Assembly (NCBI GenBank): GCA_011772595.1 | Contig: WVZH01000201.1 | Span: 996 to 13,820, forward strand | DNA length: 12,825 nucleotides | Reading direction: 5' to 3' | DNA from: Anaerolineales bacterium | GTDB lineage: Bacteria > Chloroflexota > Anaerolineae > Anaerolineales > E44-bin32 | In this document: one piece after another, positions 2,167 through 12,825 of the stretch | Layout of the letters: every line of letters begins with the position of its first letter | Numbering within the stretch: position 1 is the first letter of the stretch | Notes under the pieces: model-generated | Databases searched by the model: none | Seen by the model: only the letters and a program-made list of their open reading frames with translations | Told to the model about the DNA's origin: nothing | Program-made: the position numbers and the translations under genes

Positions 2167-2385
2167 TCACGACTCGTCCTCTTCCGGTACGTACTCGAGT
2201 AAATCGCCCGGCTGACAATCGAGCTCCCTGCAGATGGCTTCCAGGGTCGAAAAACGCATCGCCCGGGCTTTGTTCGTCTTCAGGATCGATAGATTGGGCA
2301 GGGTGATGTCGATCGCCTCAGCGAGCTCGGAGAGCTTCATCCCGCGTCTCACCAGCATTAAGTCCAGGTTCACTTTGATGGACAT
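2167..2385 (-). CDS. YozG-like XRE-family transcriptional regulator
   Basis: A 72-residue Cro/C1-type helix-turn-helix protein. The HTH spans about residues 17-40 (KLSELAEAIDIT, then LPNLSILKTNKARAMRFST), followed by the characteristic end LEAICRELDCQPGDLLEY, typical of the small YozG-like regulators. The sequence is nearly all DNA-binding domain, with no ligand domain. It starts 7 bp after the DUF2975 gene ends; the GAGGGTG ribosome site overlaps that gene's TGA, so translation is probably coupled. DUF2975 membrane proteins and YozG-like regulators commonly occur as neighbours, which supports both calls. The likely target is the TTATCG array in its own operon's promoter (inference). Confidence 0.92.
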   Translation of the reverse strand: MSIKVNLDLMLVRRGMKLSELAEAIDITLPNLSILKTNKARAMRFSTLEAICRELDCQPGDLLEYVPEEDES

Positions 2386-2392
2386 GGCACCC

Positions 2393-3037
2393 TCATATTG
2401 TCAGTGCTTTATCACGCTCGAGCTCCAGACCATAACTCCAGATGTGGGCCAGGATCAGGATCAGCAACGATACTAAGATAATCTCGGCATTGAGCGTGGG
2501 ACCCGGGTTGAGCGCCGGCAGCGCCACTGGCAGCCGGTTCAAGACCTCTGAGGCCGCGATATACTGGACCAACGGGTTTAAGAAGCCGACCAGCAGCACC
2601 ACATAACCGAGCCGCCGTAGGCGAGGTCCATTCTCGGCGGCGAAGGGATTCCCGTCGAGGGTGGCCTGCACCACGGCTCGAAGCAAATAGAACACGTAAG
2701 CCAGCCCGATCCCGCTGATCAGCTTGGCCGCGTTGGCCATCAGGACCAGGATGAAGTTGGTCGTCTCCAGACGCAGGGTGCCCTCGGCTTCCTCCACGAA
2801 TGCCGCTCGGATCTCGTCTTTGGCCGGGCTGGAGAACGAAACCTCGAACTGCGGTTCTTCACCCACACCGATCGTCACCGGTACCGTGGCCGTCCCTATG
2901 TTCCCACCCTTGCCGATGATCAAGGGCGAGAGCGCGGTCCACAGCACCAATGCCATGATGGCGAAGATCAAGAGACCGAAGAGGAAGTCGAGCAGCCCCT
3001 TCACAAATCGAATTAGACGTAGGTTTTTCGTAGACAT
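2393..3037 (-). CDS. DUF2975-family membrane protein
   Basis: About 214 residues with four predicted membrane segments: near residues 12-35 (FVKGLLDFLFGLLIFAIMAL), 95-120 (FILVLMANAAKLISGIGLAY), 143-165 (YVVLLVGFLNPLVQYIA) and a C-terminal one (AEIILVSLLILILAHIW). Between the first two is an outside-facing, strand-rich stretch of about 60 residues. The family hallmark NPFAAENGPRLRRLG lies before the third segment. Function is unknown; these proteins usually sit beside a YozG-like regulator, as here, and may modulate it or sense the membrane. I prefer the ATG at 3037 because GGAGAG ends 6 nt before it; the ATG at 3043 touches GGAGAG directly, leaving no spacer. Confidence 0.9.
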   Translation of the reverse strand: MSTKNLRLIRFVKGLLDFLFGLLIFAIMALVLWTALSPLIIGKGGNIGTATVPVTIGVGEEPQFEVSFSSPAKDEIRAAFVEEAEGTLRLETTNFILVLMANAAKLISGIGLAYVFYLLRAVVQATLDGNPFAAENGPRLRRLGYVVLLVGFLNPLVQYIAASEVLNRLPVALPALNPGPTLNAEIILVSLLILILAHIWSYGLELERDKALTI

Positions 3038-3055
3038 AGACATCTCTCCATAGGA

Positions 3056-3286: not shown

Positions 3287-4387
3287 TCACCGATCCATCC
3301 TGCGCACCCGCCAGACAACCAACAAGAGCAAGACCAACGCCAAACCAAACAACACGCCCAGGTTGAATAAGAGCGCCCCTACATTGATGGCGTTTGAGAA
3401 GGACATACTGAAGAGCTTACGCATCGCCAAGGAGGGTAACCAGGGTAGCAGCGCCTGAACCGCTGAAGGCAATCCCGTCAAGGTCGCCATCGAAATCAAC
3501 ATCGGCACCAACAGCAGCATCAACACCACTGCCATGACCATATTCATGTTTGTCGGCTGCTCGAACAGCACTCCAAAGAGCAGTCCCAACGCTACAGTGA
3601 ATAGTGCCGCGTCTAACAGCGCCAGTAGTGCCAACCATCCTGTCGCCAACAAGCGGTTGTTTAATACGTATACAACCGCCCCGGCCACCAAACAGTAAAA
3701 CATCCCCGCCAGCGCCTTGCCGAGAACAATCTGGGAATAGCTCGCCGGAGAGACGAGCATTGCCTCTATCGTGCGCCTCTCCTTCTCCTCGATCATCAGC
3801 AGCGGAACCAGCGCCATCCCTATTGTCATGACAGATGCCACCAGCGCGATGCTGATCATCAAGGGATGGCCCCCAGCATCTGGGGCAGGATAAACCTCGT
3901 TACCGGCAGAATTGAGAACCACCTCTCGACCCAGGATAGCGCTCAGTTCACGCCTGAAGAACGCCATCAATTCCTCCGCTTCGGAGCCTCTCATCGCATG
4001 GGAATAATAAGCCTCGATCTCCAGTGGCCCTTGGCTCTCTATCACAGCGGCGAGATTCTCCGGTAGCAGCAGGCCGATGGTGCCTGCCACGACCCCCCCT
4101 ACTTGCTCCAACATGGTCTCTTCCGAGGGCATCTCAATAAGGCGATAACCCTCTCCGCGCCCATATTGCTCCACGAAAGCTGATCCCGAAGCGTCGTACA
4201 CCAAAGCACGCTTCTCCGGCCGGAATTTCATCACCAACGGTAGAATCTGGCCGGAGAGCACGATCATAGCTACTCCCAGGATAATGGAAATCGTCACGCG
4301 ATTCTTGATCGCATCCACGATGTCCTTGCCGGCGATGGCCAGGACGATGCGCATCCGATCACGCATTTTAGTTTCTTTTCTCATCAT
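3287..4387 (-). CDS. ABC-2 type transporter permease (third of three)
   Basis: About 366 residues. Topology is that of the NatB/ABC-2 export permeases: a short cytoplasmic N-terminus with AGKDIVDAIKNR, a first membrane segment (about residues 30-50), a large external domain of about 120 residues, then five more hydrophobic segments. The cytoplasmic coupling motif EEKERRTIEAMLVSPAS follows the second segment and would contact the ATPase. It is the last gene of the operon, starting just after the previous permease's TAG and ending before a strong terminator. In-frame ATGs lie at 4396, 4387 and 4384; GAGG touches the first but is 9 nt from the second, so I use 4387. It is clearly paralogous to the two permeases before it. 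The substrate cannot be read from sequence. Confidence 0.9.
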   Translation of the reverse strand: MMRKETKMRDRMRIVLAIAGKDIVDAIKNRVTISIILGVAMIVLSGQILPLVMKFRPEKRALVYDASGSAFVEQYGRGEGYRLIEMPSEETMLEQVGGVVAGTIGLLLPENLAAVIESQGPLEIEAYYSHAMRGSEAEELMAFFRRELSAILGREVVLNSAGNEVYPAPDAGGHPLMISIALVASVMTIGMALVPLLMIEEKERRTIEAMLVSPASYSQIVLGKALAGMFYCLVAGAVVYVLNNRLLATGWLALLALLDAALFTVALGLLFGVLFEQPTNMNMVMAVVLMLLLVPMLISMATLTGLPSAVQALLPWLPSLAMRKLFSMSFSNAINVGALLFNLGVLFGLALVLLLLVVWRVRRMDR

Positions 4388-4399
4388 ATCATCCATCCT

Positions 4400-5482
4400 C
4401 TACCGCTCTTGCCGCCGCACCAACCAAGCATCCAAGCCGAAGAAGAATGCGCCCCAAACGATCATGATGAGCAGCGAGAGAAAATACACACCCAAGTCTA
4501 CACTGGCGGTGATGGATTGCGCTGCGGCGTTCCCCATCGCCACCGTCGGCGTCCATCGCAAGACGTCTTTGATCGCCCCAGGTATCGGCTCAAACATCCC
4601 CAGGATCATCGAGATGATCAGCGGCTGGAATGCAATGAAGCCCCACAAGCTCACCTGCTTGACCTCCTTCAATAGGATGCCCATGAGCAAGCCCAGGGAT
4701 ACATAGAAGAAAGCTCCCGCAAACAGCGCCACAAGCATCGCCCACCAATGAAGCACAAACTGCCCGTAAGCAATCAGCACCACAATCGCTGCGATGATGC
4801 TGTACGCACCACCCACCAAACCTTTGGCGATCAGCGTCTCGGTCATCGTCGCCGGGGATACCTGCAATGCATCGATCGTGCGAGCCTCCTTCTCCTCGAG
4901 GATGAGTTGTGGTGTGTACAGCATCGCCATCAAACCCATAACGATGAGTAAACCCAGCGCGATGCTGAAGGCATGCGCACCATCCGCTTGGGTGATTCTC
5001 TCCCGACCGACGCGCAGCTCGATGGGTTCATCGGTAATCCTGCTCAGCTCCGTTTCAACTTCGCTTTTCATAGAGACCTCATCCTCTACATTCACCCAAT
5101 GATCGATGATCGCTTCCAGGACGATACCCTCATGCGCACGGATCTGCTGATCGAAGTCCGTCGGCAGGACGAGCCCGATGGTGCGCACATCTTCGATCCC
5201 CACCTCACGCAGCATTTCCTCGTAGGACTCCACAGATCGCAGCCGCAAGGCTTCGCTCTTCTGGAGTTCTCTGGAGACGGGCGATTGGCCGGCATCATAC
5301 AGGATAACTCTCGCCGGTCGATCCGCGTTCCCCAATACAGGCAGAAACCGATAAAGCAGAACCAGGAATACAACCGTGAAGATGTTGGTCAGCAGCTTGC
5401 GATTCTTCAAGCTGTCCACAAAATCTTTAGCCACGATGGCCCAGACCAAACGCGCCCTCGAAATAACAACAGAATTAGACAC
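4400..5482 (-). CDS. ABC-2 type transporter permease (second of three)
   Basis: About 360 residues with the same plan as its neighbours: N-terminal AIVAKDFVDSLKNRKLL, one membrane segment, an external domain of about 130 residues, then five hydrophobic segments. The coupling motif is EEKEARTIDALQVSPATMTE. I place the start at a GTG at 5482, because a perfect AAGGAGG (5488-5494) sits 5 nt before it; an ATG at 5500 would put that ribosome site inside the gene. The AAGGAGG overlaps the TAA of the preceding permease, which points to coupled translation and matched subunit amounts. It ends in TAG, immediately before the third permease. ABC-2 permeases work as dimers, so a heterodimer with a neighbour is plausible. 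Confidence 0.9.
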   Translation of the reverse strand: MSNSVVISRARLVWAIVAKDFVDSLKNRKLLTNIFTVVFLVLLYRFLPVLGNADRPARVILYDAGQSPVSRELQKSEALRLRSVESYEEMLREVGIEDVRTIGLVLPTDFDQQIRAHEGIVLEAIIDHWVNVEDEVSMKSEVETELSRITDEPIELRVGRERITQADGAHAFSIALGLLIVMGLMAMLYTPQLILEEKEARTIDALQVSPATMTETLIAKGLVGGAYSIIAAIVVLIAYGQFVLHWWAMLVALFAGAFFYVSLGLLMGILLKEVKQVSLWGFIAFQPLIISMILGMFEPIPGAIKDVLRWTPTVAMGNAAAQSITASVDLGVYFLSLLIMIVWGAFFFGLDAWLVRRQER

Positions 5483-5487
5483 TCCTA

Positions 5488-5494
5488 CCTCCTT
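5488..5494 (-). promoter_or_regulatory. Ribosome binding site deciding a GTG start
   Basis: AAGGAGG on the minus strand, a perfect anti-16S match, with 5 nt to the GTG at 5482. It overlaps the TAA stop (5493-5495) of the upstream permease gene. Confidence 0.8.
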
Positions 5495-6584
5495 ATGCAT
5501 GATGGTCCTCCCTCTTGCGGAGGACGACTTGAATCACTGCGTGACAAACCAAAGCCCATCCAAGGACCTTCACGAGCTCCAAACCAAGTGTTGGAAGCGC
5601 AACCTGATCCGTGAAGGAAAGCCGTGAGAGATTCAAGATCGCAACGGACGGCGCCCATTGCAAGATCACCATGACTTCATCTATCAACAATCCTTCCATC
5701 AGAGAGAGAAAGGCAGGCAAAAGAACAAAGATTGTGAGTACGAATCCCCACAGGGTCATTTGCTGTTTTTGATCCAACACACTCCCCAGGAGCAACCCAA
5801 CGGCGACGAAGAAGAAGGAGCCACTCACAAGCGCAAGAATGGCTAGCCACCAATGGTTGACAAGCACGGCATGTACCACGAGGGCAATCGCCCCTCCAAG
5901 AAGTGCGAATATACTCCCTGCAATTGCTTTCGCGATCATCATCTCTGTGAAAGTTGCCGGAGAGACCATTAGTGCATCGATCGTACGAGTTTGCTTCTCA
6001 TCTATCATCATGTGAGGTACGATGAGCATGCTACCTATGGCAGCTGCGAAAACCACGGAGACCCCGCCCAGGAAAGCATAACCGCGTGAGTCCATCTGTG
6101 TATGAACGGTATGCCCCTCCAAGCTGATGGACAGTGTCTGACCGACGGAATTGCTGAGTTCCCTCTCAAAGAAAGCCACTACCTGGTCGACATCCCTCTT
6201 GAATGCCCAATGGACGACATAGCCATCCAGCATGATGCCACCACGTTCAACCATCTGATCGAAGTCTGCAGGCAGGACCAATCCCAGTATGGCAAAGTCT
6301 TTGTCTGCGATATAACGCTCCATACTTTCCTGAGTTTCCGCCCGGATGAGATCAAAATCCTGGTTTCCTTCCCATCGAACGACCCACTGCGAGCGGCCCT
6401 GATCATAAACAGCCAGACGAGGGAGGACATCTTTACTTTCAAATTCCGGCAGGAAGCGATAGACAACCACCAAAAACAAGACTGTCAAGAATTGGCTCAG
6501 GATCGTTCGATTCTTGAAAGCGTCCAAGAAATCCTTCGAAGCGATGGCCCAAATCACCCTGAGTCTCTCATTGAACGTTTTCAT
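5493..6584 (-). CDS. ABC-2 type transporter permease (first of three)
   Basis: About 363 residues. N-terminal AIASKDFLDAFKNRTIL is followed by a membrane segment (FLTVLFLVVVYRFLP), an external domain of about 120 residues, and five further hydrophobic segments. The coupling motif is DEKQTRTIDALMVSPATFTE, shared with the other two permeases. It starts at an ATG at 6584 with GAGGG 7 nt upstream; the codon just before is an in-frame GTG that could also be used. It follows the small tryptophan-rich gene by about 34 bp and leads directly into the second permease. The three permeases share the motif order and spacing, which indicates tandem duplication of an ancestral gene followed by strong divergence. 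Confidence 0.9.
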   Translation of the reverse strand: MKTFNERLRVIWAIASKDFLDAFKNRTILSQFLTVLFLVVVYRFLPEFESKDVLPRLAVYDQGRSQWVVRWEGNQDFDLIRAETQESMERYIADKDFAILGLVLPADFDQMVERGGIMLDGYVVHWAFKRDVDQVVAFFERELSNSVGQTLSISLEGHTVHTQMDSRGYAFLGGVSVVFAAAIGSMLIVPHMMIDEKQTRTIDALMVSPATFTEMMIAKAIAGSIFALLGGAIALVVHAVLVNHWWLAILALVSGSFFFVAVGLLLGSVLDQKQQMTLWGFVLTIFVLLPAFLSLMEGLLIDEVMVILQWAPSVAILNLSRLSFTDQVALPTLGLELVKVLGWALVCHAVIQVVLRKREDHHA

Positions 6585-6618
6585 CACCTTTCCCTCTCAA
6601 ACGTCACCCCGAGTAGTA

Positions 6619-7143
6619 TCAAATCACGGACGTTACGGCGACCACCACGGCTACATCTTCCGTATGCATGTAGGCCAGATACCATCCCGCCAAGCTCAAG
6701 ACAGCCAGATCGCGAACCTCCAGGGTGGCCTCGCCGTAGCGGATCTTCCCCATGCGCCTGAACCAATGTAGCCAGAGCTCGATCTCAAAGACCACCCGCC
6801 CTTGTCCATCACTCAGCGTCCATTCATCACAAAAATATCTCGTCTTCTGCCATCGGTACTTGCGACCATCTTGCAGCTGAAGTACACCATCCTTGAACCA
6901 ATCATAGTGCAGTGTGGCATAAATGTTCTCACTGCGACCATAGACCTCCACTGTGTCTCGGAAGAAACCGGATCGGTCAAAGGTCCACCGGTCTCCACCC
7001 CACACACCCACCGCGTAATCCGACAGGCACTTTGGCCAGTCCAGTGTTGCAATCCGCTGGCCCTCCGCCCACATTTCGAACGCACGTACACCAAAACCGA
7101 GCTGCCGTACTTCAATTGACTTCTGTATAGCATTACGTTCCAT
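6619..7143 (-). CDS. Conserved-looking hypothetical protein, tryptophan/tyrosine-rich
   Basis: A 174-residue protein I cannot assign to a characterised family. It has many short strand-like segments rich in W, Y and R (WTFDRSGFFRDTVEVYGRS, LQLQDGRKYRWQKTRYF) and ends in a hydrophobic helix (LAVLSLAGWYLAYMHTEDVAVVVAV). Strands followed by one buried hydrophobic C-terminal helix resemble the tubby/LURP-one/scramblase-like fold, a guess from pattern only. The same helix could instead anchor it to the membrane. It has no signal peptide. I use the ATG at 7143 because GAGGTG lies 4 nt before it; a longer start at 7248 would overlap the ATPase gene. It lies between the ATPase and the permeases, so it is probably an accessory part of the exporter. 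Confidence 0.8.
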   Translation of the reverse strand: MERNAIQKSIEVRQLGFGVRAFEMWAEGQRIATLDWPKCLSDYAVGVWGGDRWTFDRSGFFRDTVEVYGRSENIYATLHYDWFKDGVLQLQDGRKYRWQKTRYFCDEWTLSDGQGRVVFEIELWLHWFRRMGKIRYGEATLEVRDLAVLSLAGWYLAYMHTEDVAVVVAVTSVI

Positions 7144-7183: not shown

Positions 7184-7918
7184 TCAGTACAAATCGTTCC
7201 CGGTGAGCTTGATGAAGACATCCTCCAAGGTGGCTTGATCGTTCTCACCGTGGGTCGCTTTTAGATACTCTGGTGTATCGATCGCGACGATCTCACCCCG
7301 ATGGATGATCGCCACCCGATCGCTCAATCGATCGGCTTCCTCCATGTAGTGCGTGGTCAGGAAGACCGTCACCCCACCTTCAGCCAGATCGGCGATGATG
7401 GAACGGATCTCGCGCGCCACCCCAGGATCCAATCCACGAGTTGGCTCGTCGAGGAAGAGCACCTTGGGCTCGTGCAGCAACGCCCTGGCGATGAGCAACC
7501 GCTGTTTCATGCCGTTGGAGTATTTCTTGATCCGCTCTTTCGCACGATCCTGGAGTCCAACCTGCGCCAACACCTCGTCGATGCGACTTCTCTTCACGCC
7601 ATACAGTCGAGCCGAGAAGCGTAGATTGTCGAGGGCAGACAGCCGCTCATAAAGATTTTGATATTCGAACACGACGCCGATCTGTGGCATAAGGTTCAAC
7701 CGTTCCTGTACCACGTCAAACCCGACGACATGCGCCGAACCTGATGTGGGTCGAAGCTGGCCTGTGAGCACTTTGATCGTGGTTGACTTTCCTGCTCCAT
7801 TGGGACCGAGAAAGCCGAAGACCTCAGCGTAGTCCACGTCGAAGGTGATGCCTTGGACAGCTTTCACGCCGTTGTAGTACCTGTGCAGTTCGTTGACTTC
7901 AATCGCTTTCATCCTCAT
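7184..7918 (-). CDS. ABC transporter ATP-binding protein (NatA/CcmA type)
   Basis: About 244 residues and fully equipped: Walker A GPNGAGKST (residues 38-46), signature YSNGMKQR (133-140), Walker B LFLDEP with catalytic glutamate (154-159), D-loop RGLD, and switch histidine in TTH (190). The Q-loop region reads VVFEYQNLYERLS, with E where glutamine is usual. It should energise the three ABC-2 permeases downstream; it is the only intact ATPase in the window. Possible starts are ATGs at 7918 and 7912; GAGG lies 3 and 9 nt before them respectively, and the protein differs by only two residues. The short C-terminus (LEDVFIKLTGNDLY) is typical of drug/bacteriocin export ATPases. It forms an operon with the hypothetical and permease genes. 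Confidence 0.96.
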   Translation of the reverse strand: MRMKAIEVNELHRYYNGVKAVQGITFDVDYAEVFGFLGPNGAGKSTTIKVLTGQLRPTSGSAHVVGFDVVQERLNLMPQIGVVFEYQNLYERLSALDNLRFSARLYGVKRSRIDEVLAQVGLQDRAKERIKKYSNGMKQRLLIARALLHEPKVLFLDEPTRGLDPGVAREIRSIIADLAEGGVTVFLTTHYMEEADRLSDRVAIIHRGEIVAIDTPEYLKATHGENDQATLEDVFIKLTGNDLY

Positions 7919-7986: not shown

Positions 7987-8015
7987 ACGATACTTTAACT
8001 GCAAGGGCATTGCAA
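7987..8015 (-). promoter_or_regulatory. Possible promoter of the ABC exporter operon
   Basis: On the minus strand TTGCAA (8010-8015) and TATCGT (7987-7992) are spaced 17 nt apart; each matches the consensus at 4 of 6 positions. It lies between a terminator-like hairpin and the ATPase start, where a promoter is expected. The match is modest. Confidence 0.35.
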
Positions 8016-8036
8016 TAAAAAGGCGCCGAACGGCGT
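8015..8036 (-). terminator. Second terminator-like hairpin after the ABC-LytTR gene
   Basis: On the minus strand CGCC (8035-8032) and GGCG (8027-8024) form a tight stem with a GTTC loop, followed by CCTTTTTATT. It would stop transcription from the upstream regulator before the exporter operon. Confidence 0.55.
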
Positions 8037-8102
8037 GGTTTCGAGGCTGAATGGAGAATGCAGGGGGTTTAACGGAGAAAAAAATCGGACCGTTTTCTCT
8101 AC

Positions 8103-8170: not shown

Positions 8171-9166
8171 TCAATAGTCCAGCAGGTCTTTCAACTCGGC
8201 TGCAGAAGTTTTACTCAAGGGGATAAGGGTCGAGTCGGGGTCGTCCAATCTCAAACTGAAGCTGTTGCGGGTGAAGGGAATGACCTCGGTCACGTGCTGC
8301 AAGTTGACGAGGTAGCCCCGGTGAGCCCGGAAGAAACCGCTGCGGGCCAGACGCCCCTCCAGGTCGGAAAGGGTGAATTGAGTCGGAAGCGTTTCTCCGT
8401 CTGTGGTATGCAGCGCGGCACGGCCCTCTTCGGCGTCAGCGTAATATATATCACTAGGATTCAATAACGCCACCCGTCCCTCCAGTTTCACCGGGATTTT
8501 GAAGGGAAAGCGCTCCTCTTGTTCTTCGCCTGGTCGGGAGGTGGCAGTAATCCGGCCTTCATGGAGAACGTGAATCACATCGCAAATCGGTTCGAGGAGT
8601 GTGTCGTCGTCATCTAGGATGAGGATCGCCGCACCGGCATCGGCCCGCGATCGAATTAACCCCGAGAGCACGTTGATAGAAGACCCGTCGCAGCGGGCGA
8701 AGGGATCCACAAGAAGGAGAACTGCAGGATCGTGCAAGATCGCCCGACCGAACGCCAAACGCCGGGCCAGTCCGGAAGCCAGCTTGTTCATTTTGGCCTT
8801 GCCGTGGTCACCGAGTCCCACGCGCTCGAGTACTTCCTGTGCTTTGGACTTTGGCAGACCGTACAGCCTGGCGTGGAACTGAAGATTGCTGAGTGGAGAG
8901 CGTTGCTGGTAGAGACCGTCCTCGGCGAAGAGCACACCCACCTGACGGCTGTATGGATCGCGATCCGCGATGGGATCCAATCCTGATACCCGCACTGTGC
9001 CCGCAGATGGCCTGGCACGGCCGGTCAGTAGCTCAATCAGTTCGGATACGCCACTGCCCACGGGCCCGATCAGGGCAACCACCTCGCCGGCCCGAACGAC
9101 AAGCTCCGAGATATCGACCGCTGTGCGCTGATCTGTGATTTTCTGCAAATTCTTCAATTCAATCAT
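8171..9166 (-). CDS. Degenerate ABC ATPase domain fused to a LytTR DNA-binding domain
   Basis: 331 residues in two parts. Residues 1-215 are recognisably an ABC ATPase aligning along its length with the neighbouring intact one, but every catalytic motif is damaged. Walker A is GPVGSGVSE (34-42), with the lysine replaced by V40. The signature is LASGL. Walker B is LLLVDP, with aspartate replaced by V153 and glutamate by D154. The switch histidine is replaced in a DDDD run (185-188). Residues about 226-328 are a LytTR domain, with the usual strand pattern and the FFRAHRGYLVNLQHVTEV block. It therefore should not hydrolyse ATP and should bind DNA. I start at the ATG at 9166 (MIELKNLQKI), where ABC similarity begins; its ribosome site is weak (GGA, 7 nt). 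It probably regulates the adjacent exporter operon. Confidence 0.92.
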   Translation of the reverse strand: MIELKNLQKITDQRTAVDISELVVRAGEVVALIGPVGSGVSELIELLTGRARPSAGTVRVSGLDPIADRDPYSRQVGVLFAEDGLYQQRSPLSNLQFHARLYGLPKSKAQEVLERVGLGDHGKAKMNKLASGLARRLAFGRAILHDPAVLLLVDPFARCDGSSINVLSGLIRSRADAGAAILILDDDDTLLEPICDVIHVLHEGRITATSRPGEEQEERFPFKIPVKLEGRVALLNPSDIYYADAEEGRAALHTTDGETLPTQFTLSDLEGRLARSGFFRAHRGYLVNLQHVTEVIPFTRNSFSLRLDDPDSTLIPLSKTSAAELKDLLDY

Positions 9167-9569: not shown

Positions 9570-10982
9570 TTACAGTCTGAACTTAGTCACTACCCGTCGG
9601 TTCCGAGGTTCATACCTTTCAGTGGGGATAAGCAACTCCCTTTCTCCTTTGCTATTTGTAAAGATCGTGCTCGACGGGATGCAATAATTTTGAAGACCTG
9701 AACGTACCCTTTCAGCACGTCTCCAGCCAAGGCTTTCGTTGTATTCGACCGAACCTGGGGCGTCCGCATGGCCGGTTACCAGCGCCTCACCACGTTTGTG
9801 ACCCTTTTGCAATGATAGGACCTTCATCGATATCTCAGGGAGGTTCTTAAGATGGGTCGTTGTCAGGACTGCGCTATTAATTTGAAAATGATCGAGTGTA
9901 CAGTTCAAATGTGGCGGCAGCGGATAGGGAGACGGCTTTTCGTAATACCAACCGTCTTTTAGCTTAAAAACCGCCCTTCCACTGTCGTCCCTGGGAGAGC
10001 AAACATTAGATTTGGACGAATCTTCAACCTTATAATGGAACGACTCCCCTTGCCGCGTCGACTTAAAAAGCCCACGTTCCGGGTGTCCATGTTCCGCGGC
10101 AATCTCATTCTCGGTCTTGATGGTCTTATCATGCCCGGGTCGATTACCCTTGTCTCCCACATAACCTTGATTTAGTCTGCCGTGACCACACAACTCATGC
10201 GCCAAGATTCTCCACTTTGGCGCATAAATAGGTTCCCCTGAGGGTTTGAATGCGCCGAACTCGATTGCGTTGCCCGTGCCAGCTGCCATATGAATAAATG
10301 GGTGCGTCCCCGGGATTGTGTGTGGACCCACAGAAGGATAAGGTACCTTTACGACCAAATTATCACAGCCATACAAGCCATAATACCTGGGATTATTCGA
10401 TACGGTATGTACGTGGATGTTATAAGTCCGATTGGGATCATTCACCGTGTCACATATACATTCACACCCTAGGGGAGTATTTGGATCCTTGGCAGGTTCG
10501 GGAGGACAGTTCCCAACAATCGACCTTCCCGAAGCAATAAAAGTTCCTCCATCGCACAGGAAATTGAAATAGCCTGCGATCTCTCCAGCCGCAGACGCGG
10601 GATGGACGTTCACAAGTCTCCGAATCTCGTCTCTGCCCGTAGCATTCTCACGCTGCTGGACGATGTGCGTCAACTCGTGGGCCAACAATCGCTTTCCTGG
10701 GAATGTTGCGGGTCGGTATTTCCCATGATTGAAGTAAATGCTATTCCCATGGGTGAATGCTTGTGCATTGAGTCCCGCGCACATCTGGATCGCGTCGCCG
10801 CACGTGTGTACCCTCACGTCGCTGAAATCTGTTCCGAAGCGCGGCTCGAAGTAATCGCGCGTCGTTGTGGAAAGTGACTTGCCAGGACATCGGTTGGCGT
10901 GGATGCTGGCTTGAGAAAGCACCCTCTGCTGGGATTGGCCCTCCATAGGTTTTGGCCGAACGTATTCTTGCTCCTCTTCCAC
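9570..10982 (-). CDS. DUF4157 (eCIS-core) / HExxxH peptidase-like / OmpA-like protein, downstream part
   Basis: About 470 residues in three parts. Residues 33-110 are a DUF4157 domain (PGKSLSTTTRDYFEPRFG, then DFSDVRVHT) ending in the zinc motif HELTH followed by IVQQ (102-110). A central domain of unknown family holds a second metal-type motif, HELCGH (262-267), with ENEIAAEHG downstream as possible further ligands, and several cysteines (CECIC 173-177). Residues about 370-470 resemble an OmpA C-terminal peptidoglycan-binding domain (VTGHADAPGSVEYNESLGWRRAERVRSGL, R-NRRVVTKF). DUF4157 marks proteins linked to extracellular contractile injection systems. The coordinates begin at a GTG with no good ribosome site. 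The same frame stays open upstream to an in-frame TGA at 11085, beyond which the natural N-terminus lies, so this piece is probably not a complete gene. Confidence 0.85.
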   Translation of the reverse strand: MEEEQEYVRPKPMEGQSQQRVLSQASIHANRCPGKSLSTTTRDYFEPRFGTDFSDVRVHTCGDAIQMCAGLNAQAFTHGNSIYFNHGKYRPATFPGKRLLAHELTHIVQQRENATGRDEIRRLVNVHPASAAGEIAGYFNFLCDGGTFIASGRSIVGNCPPEPAKDPNTPLGCECICDTVNDPNRTYNIHVHTVSNNPRYYGLYGCDNLVVKVPYPSVGPHTIPGTHPFIHMAAGTGNAIEFGAFKPSGEPIYAPKWRILAHELCGHGRLNQGYVGDKGNRPGHDKTIKTENEIAAEHGHPERGLFKSTRQGESFHYKVEDSSKSNVCSPRDDSGRAVFKLKDGWYYEKPSPYPLPPHLNCTLDHFQINSAVLTTTHLKNLPEISMKVLSLQKGHKRGEALVTGHADAPGSVEYNESLGWRRAERVRSGLQNYCIPSSTIFTNSKGERELLIPTERYEPRNRRVVTKFRL

Positions 10983-11084: not shown

Positions 11085-11375
11085 TCAGGTGGGCTGCCGC
11101 TGGATCCCAGGTACTGACATGCGCAGCACGCGACCGGCGATTCTGTCGGCCTCCTGCTCGTAACGATCGCCGGGCTTGTTAACCTTGAGCTTGGTTTGCA
11201 CAAGTAAACAACGAGGACAGTCGCCGCCACAGCTACATACAGGCTTGCGCTGGATCATCAAGGAAGGTATCGAACTGACTGGCCGGGAATGAATCCGCAA
11301 TGACGCAGTCCCCCCATGGCGGACGGTTATGCGCCTGGTTGGTTCCAAGCGTAATACTCGACCTGTCGTCTTCAT
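11085..11375 (-). CDS. N-terminal fragment of the DUF4157 protein
   Basis: Ninety-six residues that end at TGA (11085-11087). It carries the short cysteine cluster VCSCGGDCPRC (residues 46-56) and then TKLKVNKPGDRYEQEADRIAGRV, the segment that normally leads a DUF4157 protein, followed by the linker start GIQRQPT. On its own it lacks the DUF4157 core. I use the ATG at 11375, preceded by a G-rich stretch (GGGGATGGGGGC); a GTG at 11405 is also in frame. The frame continues past the stop into the downstream piece without any shift, so this is the first part of one gene and not an independent gene. It lies about 96 bp after the toxin-like gene, probably in the same transcript. Confidence 0.7.
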   Translation of the reverse strand: MKTTGRVLRLEPTRRITVRHGGTASLRIHSRPVSSIPSLMIQRKPVCSCGGDCPRCLLVQTKLKVNKPGDRYEQEADRIAGRVLRMSVPGIQRQPT

Positions 11376-11471
11376 GCCCCCATCCCCCGTACCTACATCA
11401 TACACGCGGTTCGAGCTGGAGAGAAATCTTCAGACAAACCAACACAGAAGAACCTGCAATGGAAAGACCAA

Positions 11472-12825
11472 TCATTCGAATGGTATGAGCAATATTCCCT
11501 CTTGTGGTATGAGTGACGCACAGGCAGCACAAGCTGGACGGGAAGGAATGATTGCGATAATCTCGACATCTGCATTTGCGTTTTGGAACTCTATCAGGAG
11601 TTGTTCTGCATCCTCGGGTCGTGCTGCCGCCGCAGCCTCTTGCCTGCCTTTCGTACGCACCCTGGGTTCAGCCATGACGCGTGTCACACGAAGCTCATCC
11701 GCTTGAGCGTTCAGTACTGTTCCGATCCTGCCACCACGTGTTCCGGAGAATTTGTTGCGATTTGTGGCGAATAAAAAGCGCGGTTTCCCCTCCACCTTGG
11801 CAAATGCAACTGCGATCGTACTGTTCCTTCCCGCCCGGCCTGGTATTACCGTACGTAGCCCTTCCATTATTTCTCGCATTCTGTTGACATCATCCGCTGA
11901 AATCAGACCCCTCCGGATGGCATCCGTAAGCGGATCGACGGCCCCAGCGATGCCGCGCCCTCCTGGCGTAAAATCGCACTTCGAACATTTAATAAAGCCC
12001 GTGGCCTCCTCCGGATCAATCCTGTGCCACTTTCCGGTGGCTTCATCAAAGAATCTATAACTTTTACCCGCTTCACCAGCCTCGGTCACAAGCCAGATAC
12101 CGCGAGTAGCCTTCTCTTGAGCTTTCGCGCCACGACCTAGCTTACTTTTGAGTCGGTATGCTCCACGACCAATGAAAGCGACCGCACTTTGACCGCCACT
12201 CTTCACTGCAGTCACCACTTGCGATTGCAAAACTCTCGTTGCTAAGCGTGTTTTGGCCGCCTTCTTACCGGCAACCAAAGCGCCTCCGGGTGCAACAGCA
12301 AGCGCAGCGCCCTTCCAATCTCCTTGCGCCACTGATACGCCCGCTTCAGCAATGTCGACGAGAATCCCGAACGGCATGAAGGACATTAGGATCTCTGTCA
12401 TGATCATACCCATGATCGCGGATCCAAGCGCGTTCTGAGCCGCTTTGATGATTTGCCCCAGAATCACGTCCTCCGAGAAATCTGTAAGTCTCTGCTTATA
12501 GATTCGTCTACCCGGACGTTCAATAAAAAATACGCCGTAACCATTTGACCACAACAACTGTCTGCTCTTTTTCTTGGAAACATCAAAAATATCACCAACA
12601 CGAGCATTACCCAAAGAAAATCCACCAACTCGCCGAATCTCAACTATCTTGCTATCTTGTCTTGAGGCAACCTGAAAAAACTCTTCCACTGAGACTGGAA
12701 CCGGTCGAGAGACACCGGGCACAACGTAAAAAGTGCCACTGATGTCAACCGGCTCTTCAGGTTTGGCCCGTTCCTTCCATTCGGCAACAAACGGATGATA
12801 TCTCTCCTTAAGTACTCGTTTCCAG
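11472..12825 (-). CDS. Deaminase-like toxin/effector, C-terminal part (runs off window end)
   Basis: The frame is open from the window edge to TGA at 11472, giving 450 visible residues; an in-frame GTG at 12722 is not a credible start, because coding-like sequence (KERYHPFVAEWKERAKPEEP) continues upstream of it. Visible parts: a strand-rich region (1-115); a hydrophobic helical stretch with many Gly and Ala (about 120-184) that could insert into membranes; a basic linker; a CSKC pair (280-283); and a final domain of about 118 residues. That domain has the cytidine-deaminase-like order: a strand (TIAVAFAKVEGKPRFLFATN), a helix opening with DAEQ (405-408), and a strand then PACAAC (430-435). 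The usual zinc-binding histidine or cysteine before AE is aspartate here. Large proteins with toxin tails beside DUF4157 genes fit injected effectors. No immunity gene is recognisable. Confidence 0.8.
   Translation of the reverse strand, partial: WKRVLKERYHPFVAEWKERAKPEEPVDISGTFYVVPGVSRPVPVSVEEFFQVASRQDSKIVEIRRVGGFSLGNARVGDIFDVSKKKSRQLLWSNGYGVFFIERPGRRIYKQRLTDFSEDVILGQIIKAAQNALGSAIMGMIMTEILMSFMPFGILVDIAEAGVSVAQGDWKGAALAVAPGGALVAGKKAAKTRLATRVLQSQVVTAVKSGGQSAVAFIGRGAYRLKSKLGRGAKAQEKATRGIWLVTEAGEAGKSYRFFDEATGKWHRIDPEEATGFIKCSKCDFTPGGRGIAGAVDPLTDAIRRGLISADDVNRMREIMEGLRTVIPGRAGRNSTIAVAFAKVEGKPRFLFATNRNKFSGTRGGRIGTVLNAQADELRVTRVMAEPRVRTKGRQEAAAAARPEDAEQLLIEFQNANADVEIIAIIPSRPACAACASLIPQEGILLIPFE

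Follow-up and report, generated by a model that had tools for sequence, protein, structure and literature searches.

The window analysed here is a stretch of 12,825 nucleotides from an Anaerolineales bacterium (contig WVZH01000201.1, positions 996 to 13,820). Its minus strand carries a gene for an ABC-domain/LytTR fusion protein, a gap with a candidate operator array and a promoter-like block, and an ABC-2 exporter operon that encodes its own live ATPase, or NBD (Table 1). Judged by its sequence, the fusion product is an intact two-domain protein whose ABC half is a pseudo-ATPase. The motifs of this half read GPVGSGVSE (Walker A), KLASGLARRL (signature), LLLVDP (Walker B) and LILDDDD (switch); the Walker A Lys, the Walker B Asp, the LSGGQ signature and the switch His are all off consensus (none of the four is canonical), and the protein does not qualify as a catalytically active ABC ATPase. 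This confirms the sequence-only reading, which had called the ABC half degenerate in Walker A (V40), Walker B, the signature and the switch His. The complete ABC domain fold is nonetheless present, and purifying selection acts on this half. The claim that the LytTR half is intact was also borne out, since its match to PF04397 reached 74.5 bits against a curated cut-off of 22.6, and a comparison of homologues indicated that it is the better conserved half. Among the NCBIfam profiles, the best 25 of 171 rows were general ABC families, all under their own cut-offs. The ABC-LytTR architecture is already known from databases, in PIRSF036612/IPR012046, which we take to be the family with the same two-domain layout and which is an architecture entry only; a literature search by these two names gave no paper.

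Table 1. Features of the fusion gene, the candidate operator and the exporter operon (window coordinates)
Feature	Position	Strand	Basis or remark
ABC pseudo-ATPase/LytTR fusion regulator	8171..9166	minus	331 aa; ORF, Pfam, AlphaFold, homologues
Pseudo-ABC (NBD-like) half	8522..9166	minus	residues 1-215
LytTR DNA-binding domain, intact	8180..8476	minus	residues 231-329; Pfam
Candidate operator repeat 1, TCCGTTAAACC	8066..8076	minus	repeat matrix
Candidate operator repeat 2, TCCATTCAGCC	8045..8055	minus	21 bp after repeat 1
Candidate operator repeat 3, GCCGTTCGGCG	8024..8034	minus	21 bp after repeat 2; shares bases with a short palindrome that precedes a T run
-35-like TTGCAA, exporter operon promoter	8010..8015	minus	TTGCA at the same place in many aligned loci
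-10-like TATCGT	7987..7992	minus	17-bp spacer to the -35; 42 bp from the start of repeat 3 to the start of the box
Live ABC-2 ATPase (NBD), motifs intact	7184..7912	minus	242 aa; Pfam, motif reading
Small exporter-operon gene	6619..7143	minus	174 aa; no Pfam family above cut-off; NBD-adjacent homologues in L002, L022, L027
ABC-2 permease (ABC2_membrane_3)	5493..6587	minus	Pfam
ABC-2 permease (ABC2_membrane_3)	4400..5500	minus	Pfam
ABC-2 permease (ABC2_membrane_3)	3287..4396	minus	Pfam

The extent of motif loss was assessed in the best 120 of 3587 scored matches, a set that includes the window protein (the 3587 also contain ordinary ABC ATPases). The switch His is missing in all 120 proteins and the Walker B Asp in 119 (P0084 is the sole keeper), while the position after this Asp is acidic in 118. 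Walker A has its Lys in 106 of the 120, and the Lys-to-Val change of the window is an outlier. The signature Ser is gone in 86, with Pro in its place in 69; the signature Gly is present in 110, and Ser and Gly occur together in 28, with P0089 reading LSGGL. These homologues have in addition a new motif, P-F-A-R-C-D, of which Cys159 and Asp160 are found in 120/120. Ktedonobacterial fusions retain the Lys, and often the Walker B Asp, without the switch His, and those of Thermogemmatispora retain the Walker A Lys together with the Walker B Asp-Glu. In an alignment of 121 Bacilli proteins, among them the partial record P0187, which lacks LytTR, no protein retains the first Gly of Walker A, so that the P-loop is lost; the Walker B Asp is changed to Glu in 120, the D-loop Asp is present in 120, and the switch His is absent. 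Across 35 Bacilli loci the Walker A Lys and the switch His are missing throughout and the Walker B Asp is found in 3; the signature of one of these fusions (L119) is near-normal, LSNGE.

A fusion homologue with every motif intact would have spoken against the sequence-only reading; none was found in the best 120 matches, the 121 Bacilli proteins, the 35 Bacilli loci or the 49 Chloroflexota rows of the motif table (window included, L045 entered twice, L047 missing). As a family trait, motif loss stood for the switch His, which no readable row has, and did not hold in the same way for the other motifs, whose loss is graded, as the Thermogemmatispora fusions and the 28 of 120 proteins with signature Ser and Gly illustrate. 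On these alignments, the state common to all fusions is the lack of the switch His, and the other losses and their extent are lineage-dependent. This bears on the possibility that the pseudo-NBD senses nucleotide (the ATP/ADP level) through a remnant P-loop, a reading in line with the 106 of 120 Chloroflexota homologues that have the Walker A Lys and the 118 whose catalytic position is acidic. The window protein has Val40, however, and the Bacilli fusions, whose first P-loop Gly is gone in 121/121, keep the same gene layout and a related operator. Because the Bacilli branch is without a P-loop, nucleotide sensing is unlikely as a general mechanism, and we regard this explanation as very improbable.

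The surroundings of the gene were examined through a genome scan, which found 110 relatives; 80 loci were kept, and 48 of them, all Chloroflexota by title, encode the fusion whole or partly (broken or contig-cut in L006, L016, L031 and L044-L047). The fusion adjoins an ABC-2 exporter operon in 43 of these 48 loci, with an NBD gene in reach in 41 and permeases only in 2 (L006 and L030). The Ktedonobacteria-like fusions of L033, L038 and L040 have no such NBD operon next door, and L045 and L046 are fragments. Most Anaerolineae loci have, on one strand, the fusion, then the gap, the NBD and the permeases; a permease precedes the NBD in L028, L029 and L043, and in Ktedonobacteria the operon is divergent from the fusion. 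The operons have a single live NBD gene, together with between one and four genes for permeases. Matches to the fusion were also found in 38 of 398 Bacilli genomes (E up to 1e-40), and in 3 of 398 genomes drawn from the whole phylum. A live NBD lies directly downstream of the fusion in 34 of the 35 Bacilli loci (the exception is L108; L100 repeats L099, the one duplicate pair), and annotated Priestia plasmids have the order fusion, NBD, permease. These figures answer the question of how often ABC-LytTR fusions adjoin ABC-2 operons, and they indicate that a dead ABC domain joined to a DNA-binding one and located next to an operon with a live ATPase, as the sequence-only reading had described it, is an arrangement conserved in Chloroflexota and Bacilli.

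Among 201 Chloroflexota genomes, the fusion was found in 12 (E up to 1e-45) and a close NBD in 13 (E up to 1e-72), with 10 genomes common to both; G084, one of the three NBD-only genomes, turned out to carry a diverged fusion. The adjacent NBD was the fusion's best other ABC match in 8 of the 8 genomes scanned. A search of viral contigs gave no fusion, and none was recognised in the best 5 of 371 phage records. On plasmid unnamed3 of Priestia megaterium DSM 32 (L085:4222-5327) the fusion is annotated as two ORFs, the ABC and LytTR parts, and on the related plasmid pPmT-2 (L087) as one ORF. The Priestia fusion in L087:1-6101 has as neighbours a lantibiotic cluster of mersacidin type and the gene of a site-2 protease, which may be a lead on the cargo of the exporter.

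The ATPase next to the fusion has kept its motifs. They are intact in 34 of 34 Bacilli neighbours, and in 43 Chloroflexota NBD rows we counted the Lys in 43, the Asp in 42, the Glu in 41 and the His in 39; the departing rows are two that are not fusion-adjacent (L002_863 and L022_3357) and two that are truncated (L018 and L047). Within the window, the DNA from the fusion gene to the operon promoter contains no minus-strand ORF of at least 60 aa. In the closest relative (L001:2090-2545), two small ORFs of 57 and 76 aa, with hydrophobic stretches by eye, are located between the conserved promoter block and the NBD gene.

The gap between the fusion and the NBD contains the candidate operator. An unguided motif search in 28 fusion-NBD gaps retrieved a 24-bp element with a score of 731, compared with 285-300 in three shuffles, and an anchored alignment resolved direct repeats of an 11-bp unit, kCCATTCAnCC, with a period of 21 bp. 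When a matrix of this unit was applied to 36 NBD-upstream regions, 47 pairs spaced at 20-22 bp were counted in 25 regions. In 200 dinucleotide shuffles the mean was 0.05 pairs, and no shuffle had more than 1. The Chloroflexota regions counted here also supplied the training set of the matrix, and the one held-out test is that of the Bacilli. The commonest spacings were 21 (38), 42 (18), 41 (10), 20 (9) and 63 bp (6). Under a criterion that tolerates one missing unit, the array is present in 38 of 44 Chloroflexota regions and absent from 6; this set omits L033, L038 and L040 (no NBD operon in reach) and the fragments L045 and L046, and the region limits were chosen manually for some loci, namely those with an over-called ORF start (L017, L020) or a different gene order. 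In 19 of the 38 arrays, the distance from the start of the last repeat to that of a TAT[AG]NT box is exactly 42 bp, and in one it is 41 bp. The array is oriented towards the NBD operon, with zero pairs on the reverse strand. As sequence, it has the features of a LytTR target site: the direct repeats are short, recur at about two turns of the helix and lie close to a promoter.

Across L001-L048, 42 pairs fall in NBD-upstream regions and 8 elsewhere; six of these 8 (L006 twice, L028, L029, L030 and L043) precede an ABC-2 operon in another gene order, one (L020) is in a gap with an over-called NBD start, and that of L018 is unexplained. The sequence-only reading had named the DNA on both sides of the fusion gene as candidate targets. 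The side between the fusion and the ATPase gene does carry a LytTR-like array; the DNA before the fusion does not, with 0 repeat pairs in 29 upstream regions and 10 sites against 11.2 expected. Autoregulation of the fusion was tentatively set aside, given that no repeat pair lies in these upstream regions. A known RNA element in the conserved gap was rejected, as the window gave no Rfam match at gathering score. The palindrome followed by a T stretch has in the window a stem of just 4 bp, which is no better than shuffles, and it is absent from the terminator scan; in other loci, where it is longer, it may be the terminator of the fusion transcript.

The Chloroflexota matrix, unchanged, was applied to 33 distinct Bacilli gaps as the held-out test. 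It found 45 sites in 29 regions, compared with a mean of 3.9 sites (maximum 10) in a mean of 3.6 regions (maximum 9) for shuffled sequences, and 12 pairs in 7 regions, for which the shuffle maximum was 1. At the strict array criterion 12 of the 33 gaps pass, and the other 21 have fewer or weaker sites. In the genome sample, the array was present at 10 of 11 fusion-adjacent NBDs, although most of these genomes overlap the training regions of the matrix, and at 0 of 3 NBDs without a fusion in reach (for one, L161, 336 bp upstream are readable and the contig end is nearby); L151 is without the array. A weak array at the NBD of L160 led to the divergent fusion of G084, which the first search had missed.

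The two-repeat pattern was also searched for by itself. In 7 genomes, 4 of 5 matches were in the fusion-NBD gap, and in the 12 fusion genomes 7 of 9 were beside the fusion; in the 201 Chloroflexota genomes at least 95 match, among the matches listed, and the control columns were filled too, for which reason we rejected the pattern alone as a specific genome-wide marker. In a genome without a detected fusion (G041:C63:26583-26780), about ten CCGTTCGCC units follow one another with a 21-bp period, and this run may be a coding tandem repeat.

The array is known as sequence and the fusion is its candidate binder, which leaves room for the idea that another regulator binds it and that the fusion is an accidental or decaying neighbour. 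Against this idea stand the layout kept in two phyla, the purifying selection on the ABC half, the absence of the array from all three sampled NBDs without a fusion in reach, and the 21-bp spacing, which fits the LytTR sites described in PMC11347149. We consider it the most improbable of the explanations weighed here. According to the same source, most LytTR sites located upstream of a -35 are those of activators, and for this reason activation is, by analogy, the likelier sign of control at the exporter promoter.

The relation of the sensor half to its partner was evaluated by a segment comparison, in which 39 Chloroflexota and 33 Bacilli fusions were set against the NBD of their own locus and against 20 further Chloroflexota NBDs, chosen among the fusion's better ABC matches. 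In residues 76-127, which comprise the Q-loop, the helical subdomain and the X-loop, the own-NBD excess was +0.14 in Chloroflexota, versus +0.01 elsewhere, and +0.09 in Bacilli, versus +0.02 elsewhere; differences of this size were reached by 5 of 212 circular shifts in Chloroflexota and 17 of 212 in Bacilli, and the signature segment of the Bacilli showed an own-NBD excess too (+0.14). In ABC transporters the Q-loop/helical subdomain/X-loop segment, whose limits are approximate, faces the membrane domains. The excess is suggestive of a kept docking surface, and the docking signal in this comparison is modest. Since the likeness to the own partner lies mainly in the subdomain that faces the membrane domains, docking on the transporter is favoured over a heterodimer of the catalytic type.

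The operon could be controlled as proposed by a pseudo-NBD that makes no contact with the transporter and serves as a dimerisation or assembly module or as a sensor of a small ligand. The repeats need two or three subunits and the LytTR domain is the better conserved half, both of which agree with such a role; on the other hand, it leaves unexplained the frequent pairing with one NBD type and the own-NBD likeness in the membrane-facing subdomain. We judge this explanation unlikely, although it deserves attention. Alternatively, the pseudo-NBD could belong to the exporter itself as a structural subunit and supply half of an asymmetric NBD pair in which one site is degenerate, as happens in heterodimeric ABC exporters. 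The operons, with a single live NBD gene next to one to four permeases, and the signature Ser and Gly of 28/120 fusions would lend themselves to such a role. In known degenerate-site exporters, one composite site stays canonical. In the window protein, the signature (LASGL), the Walker motifs and the switch His are all changed, so that both composite sites would be affected; moreover, the fusion bears a DNA-binding domain, and the operon has its own promoter-like block after the fusion. A structural role thus seems to us highly improbable. The fused NBDs with degenerate sites of RbsA and NupO, as described in PMC11466899, have also lost Walker or signature residues; they are transporter subunits, whereas the fusion carries a DNA-binding domain.

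In the tree, the pseudo-NBDs of both phyla group together, apart from 48 live NBD rows (99/95); the branches of three Bacilli rows are very long. This tree would suit a single old fusion and differing decay thereafter, although long branches could mimic such a grouping. A recent duplication of the neighbouring NBD, which its place as the fusion's best other ABC match had suggested, was rejected because the tree sets the pseudo-NBDs apart from the live ones, with the reservation that long-branch attraction is possible. Within Chloroflexota, the fusion and partner clades share their main groups, as expected for genes that were inherited jointly.

Taken as a whole, we think it probable, at somewhat better than even chances, that the fusion is a dedicated transcription regulator of the adjacent ABC-2 exporter operon, with the pseudo-NBD as a sensor that docks on the exporter; a transporter-coupled LytTR regulator of the adjacent operon is the most likely description of the locus. 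The LytTR half is matched in sequence by the three direct repeats, which lie directly upstream of the -35-like box of the exporter, in register with its promoter, and which, being 21 bp apart, fall on one face of the helix. The N-terminal pseudo-NBD, with its catalytic residues lost and its fold kept, would act as the sensor, docking on a permease or on the live NBD through the membrane-domain-facing subdomain that it has in common with the live NBD. The state or occupancy of the transporter would then set the amount of regulator that is free for DNA, and with it the drive of the operon, following the logic of MalK holding MalT. Docking might turn the regulator off, which is more likely, or on. 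We also propose, more tentatively and as a possibility that we would put well short of even, a class of decoy-NBD transcription factors, in which a dead relative of the NBD sits in the permease seat of the live ATPase, reads the conformation or occupancy of the exporter and passes it to the promoter through the 21-bp array, and which was kept in Chloroflexota and Bacilli after differing motif losses.

RcoM senses via a haem domain. The fusion resembles CoxC and RcoM, as described in PMC11347149, in that its LytTR domain is C-terminal and that the target -35 has three direct repeats nearby, spaced by about two turns of the helix; CoxC differs in that it senses through a membrane MHYT domain, in place of a pseudo-NBD, and in that its sites overlap the -35 and repress, whereas the array at the fusion locus ends upstream of the -35. 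In E. coli, according to PMC10427625, an ABC subunit of a transporter, MalK, likewise controls a transcription factor by transport activity, but there the NBD, MalK, is live and the regulator, MalT, is a STAND ATPase, whereas the fusion regulator itself has the NBD fold; by analogy, MalK-MalT is a working likeness and not a homology. The LRS systems, as described in PMC6193735, share a LytTR regulator that is genetically coupled to a membrane partner, and some are linked to ABC transporter genes. These systems combine a membrane inhibitor partner with autoregulation, whereas the fusion neighbours an exporter operon and showed no array before its own gene, and the window locus offers no candidate of 60 aa or more for a cotranscribed dedicated membrane inhibitor ahead of the operon promoter.

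Among the matches listed by the literature search, none was a study of ABC-LytTR proteins. Within the reach of that search, three findings read from sequence would be new: the putative operator, the loss of different motifs in different lineages, and the likeness to the partner in one part of the sensor half. If the proposed coupling is right, the exporter would report its own state to its own promoter through a dead twin of its ATPase, with no need for a kinase, a binding protein or a second messenger, and pseudo-NBDs would gain a signalling role in transcription. The operator makes the idea testable, as a DNA site, a target promoter and a surface for mutation can be named in two phyla, of which one includes Bacilli that are tractable in the laboratory, among them Priestia megaterium.

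Other genes in the window were noted in passing. The gene at 267-1634 encodes a TldD/PmbA-type metallopeptidase. At 2167-3043, a small HTH_26 regulator gene immediately follows the gene of a membrane protein whose DUF2975 match is below cut-off; by sequence this is another regulator/membrane-protein pair. The 416-aa protein of 11472-12722, with no Pfam match up to E 1, has a C-terminal Cys-x-x-Cys by eye. The protein encoded at 9570-10982 combines an eCIS_core (DUF4157) domain with a C-terminal OmpA domain (Pfam), and the ORF at 11085-11405 ends in an EQEADRIA stretch that, by eye, has a look similar to that protein.
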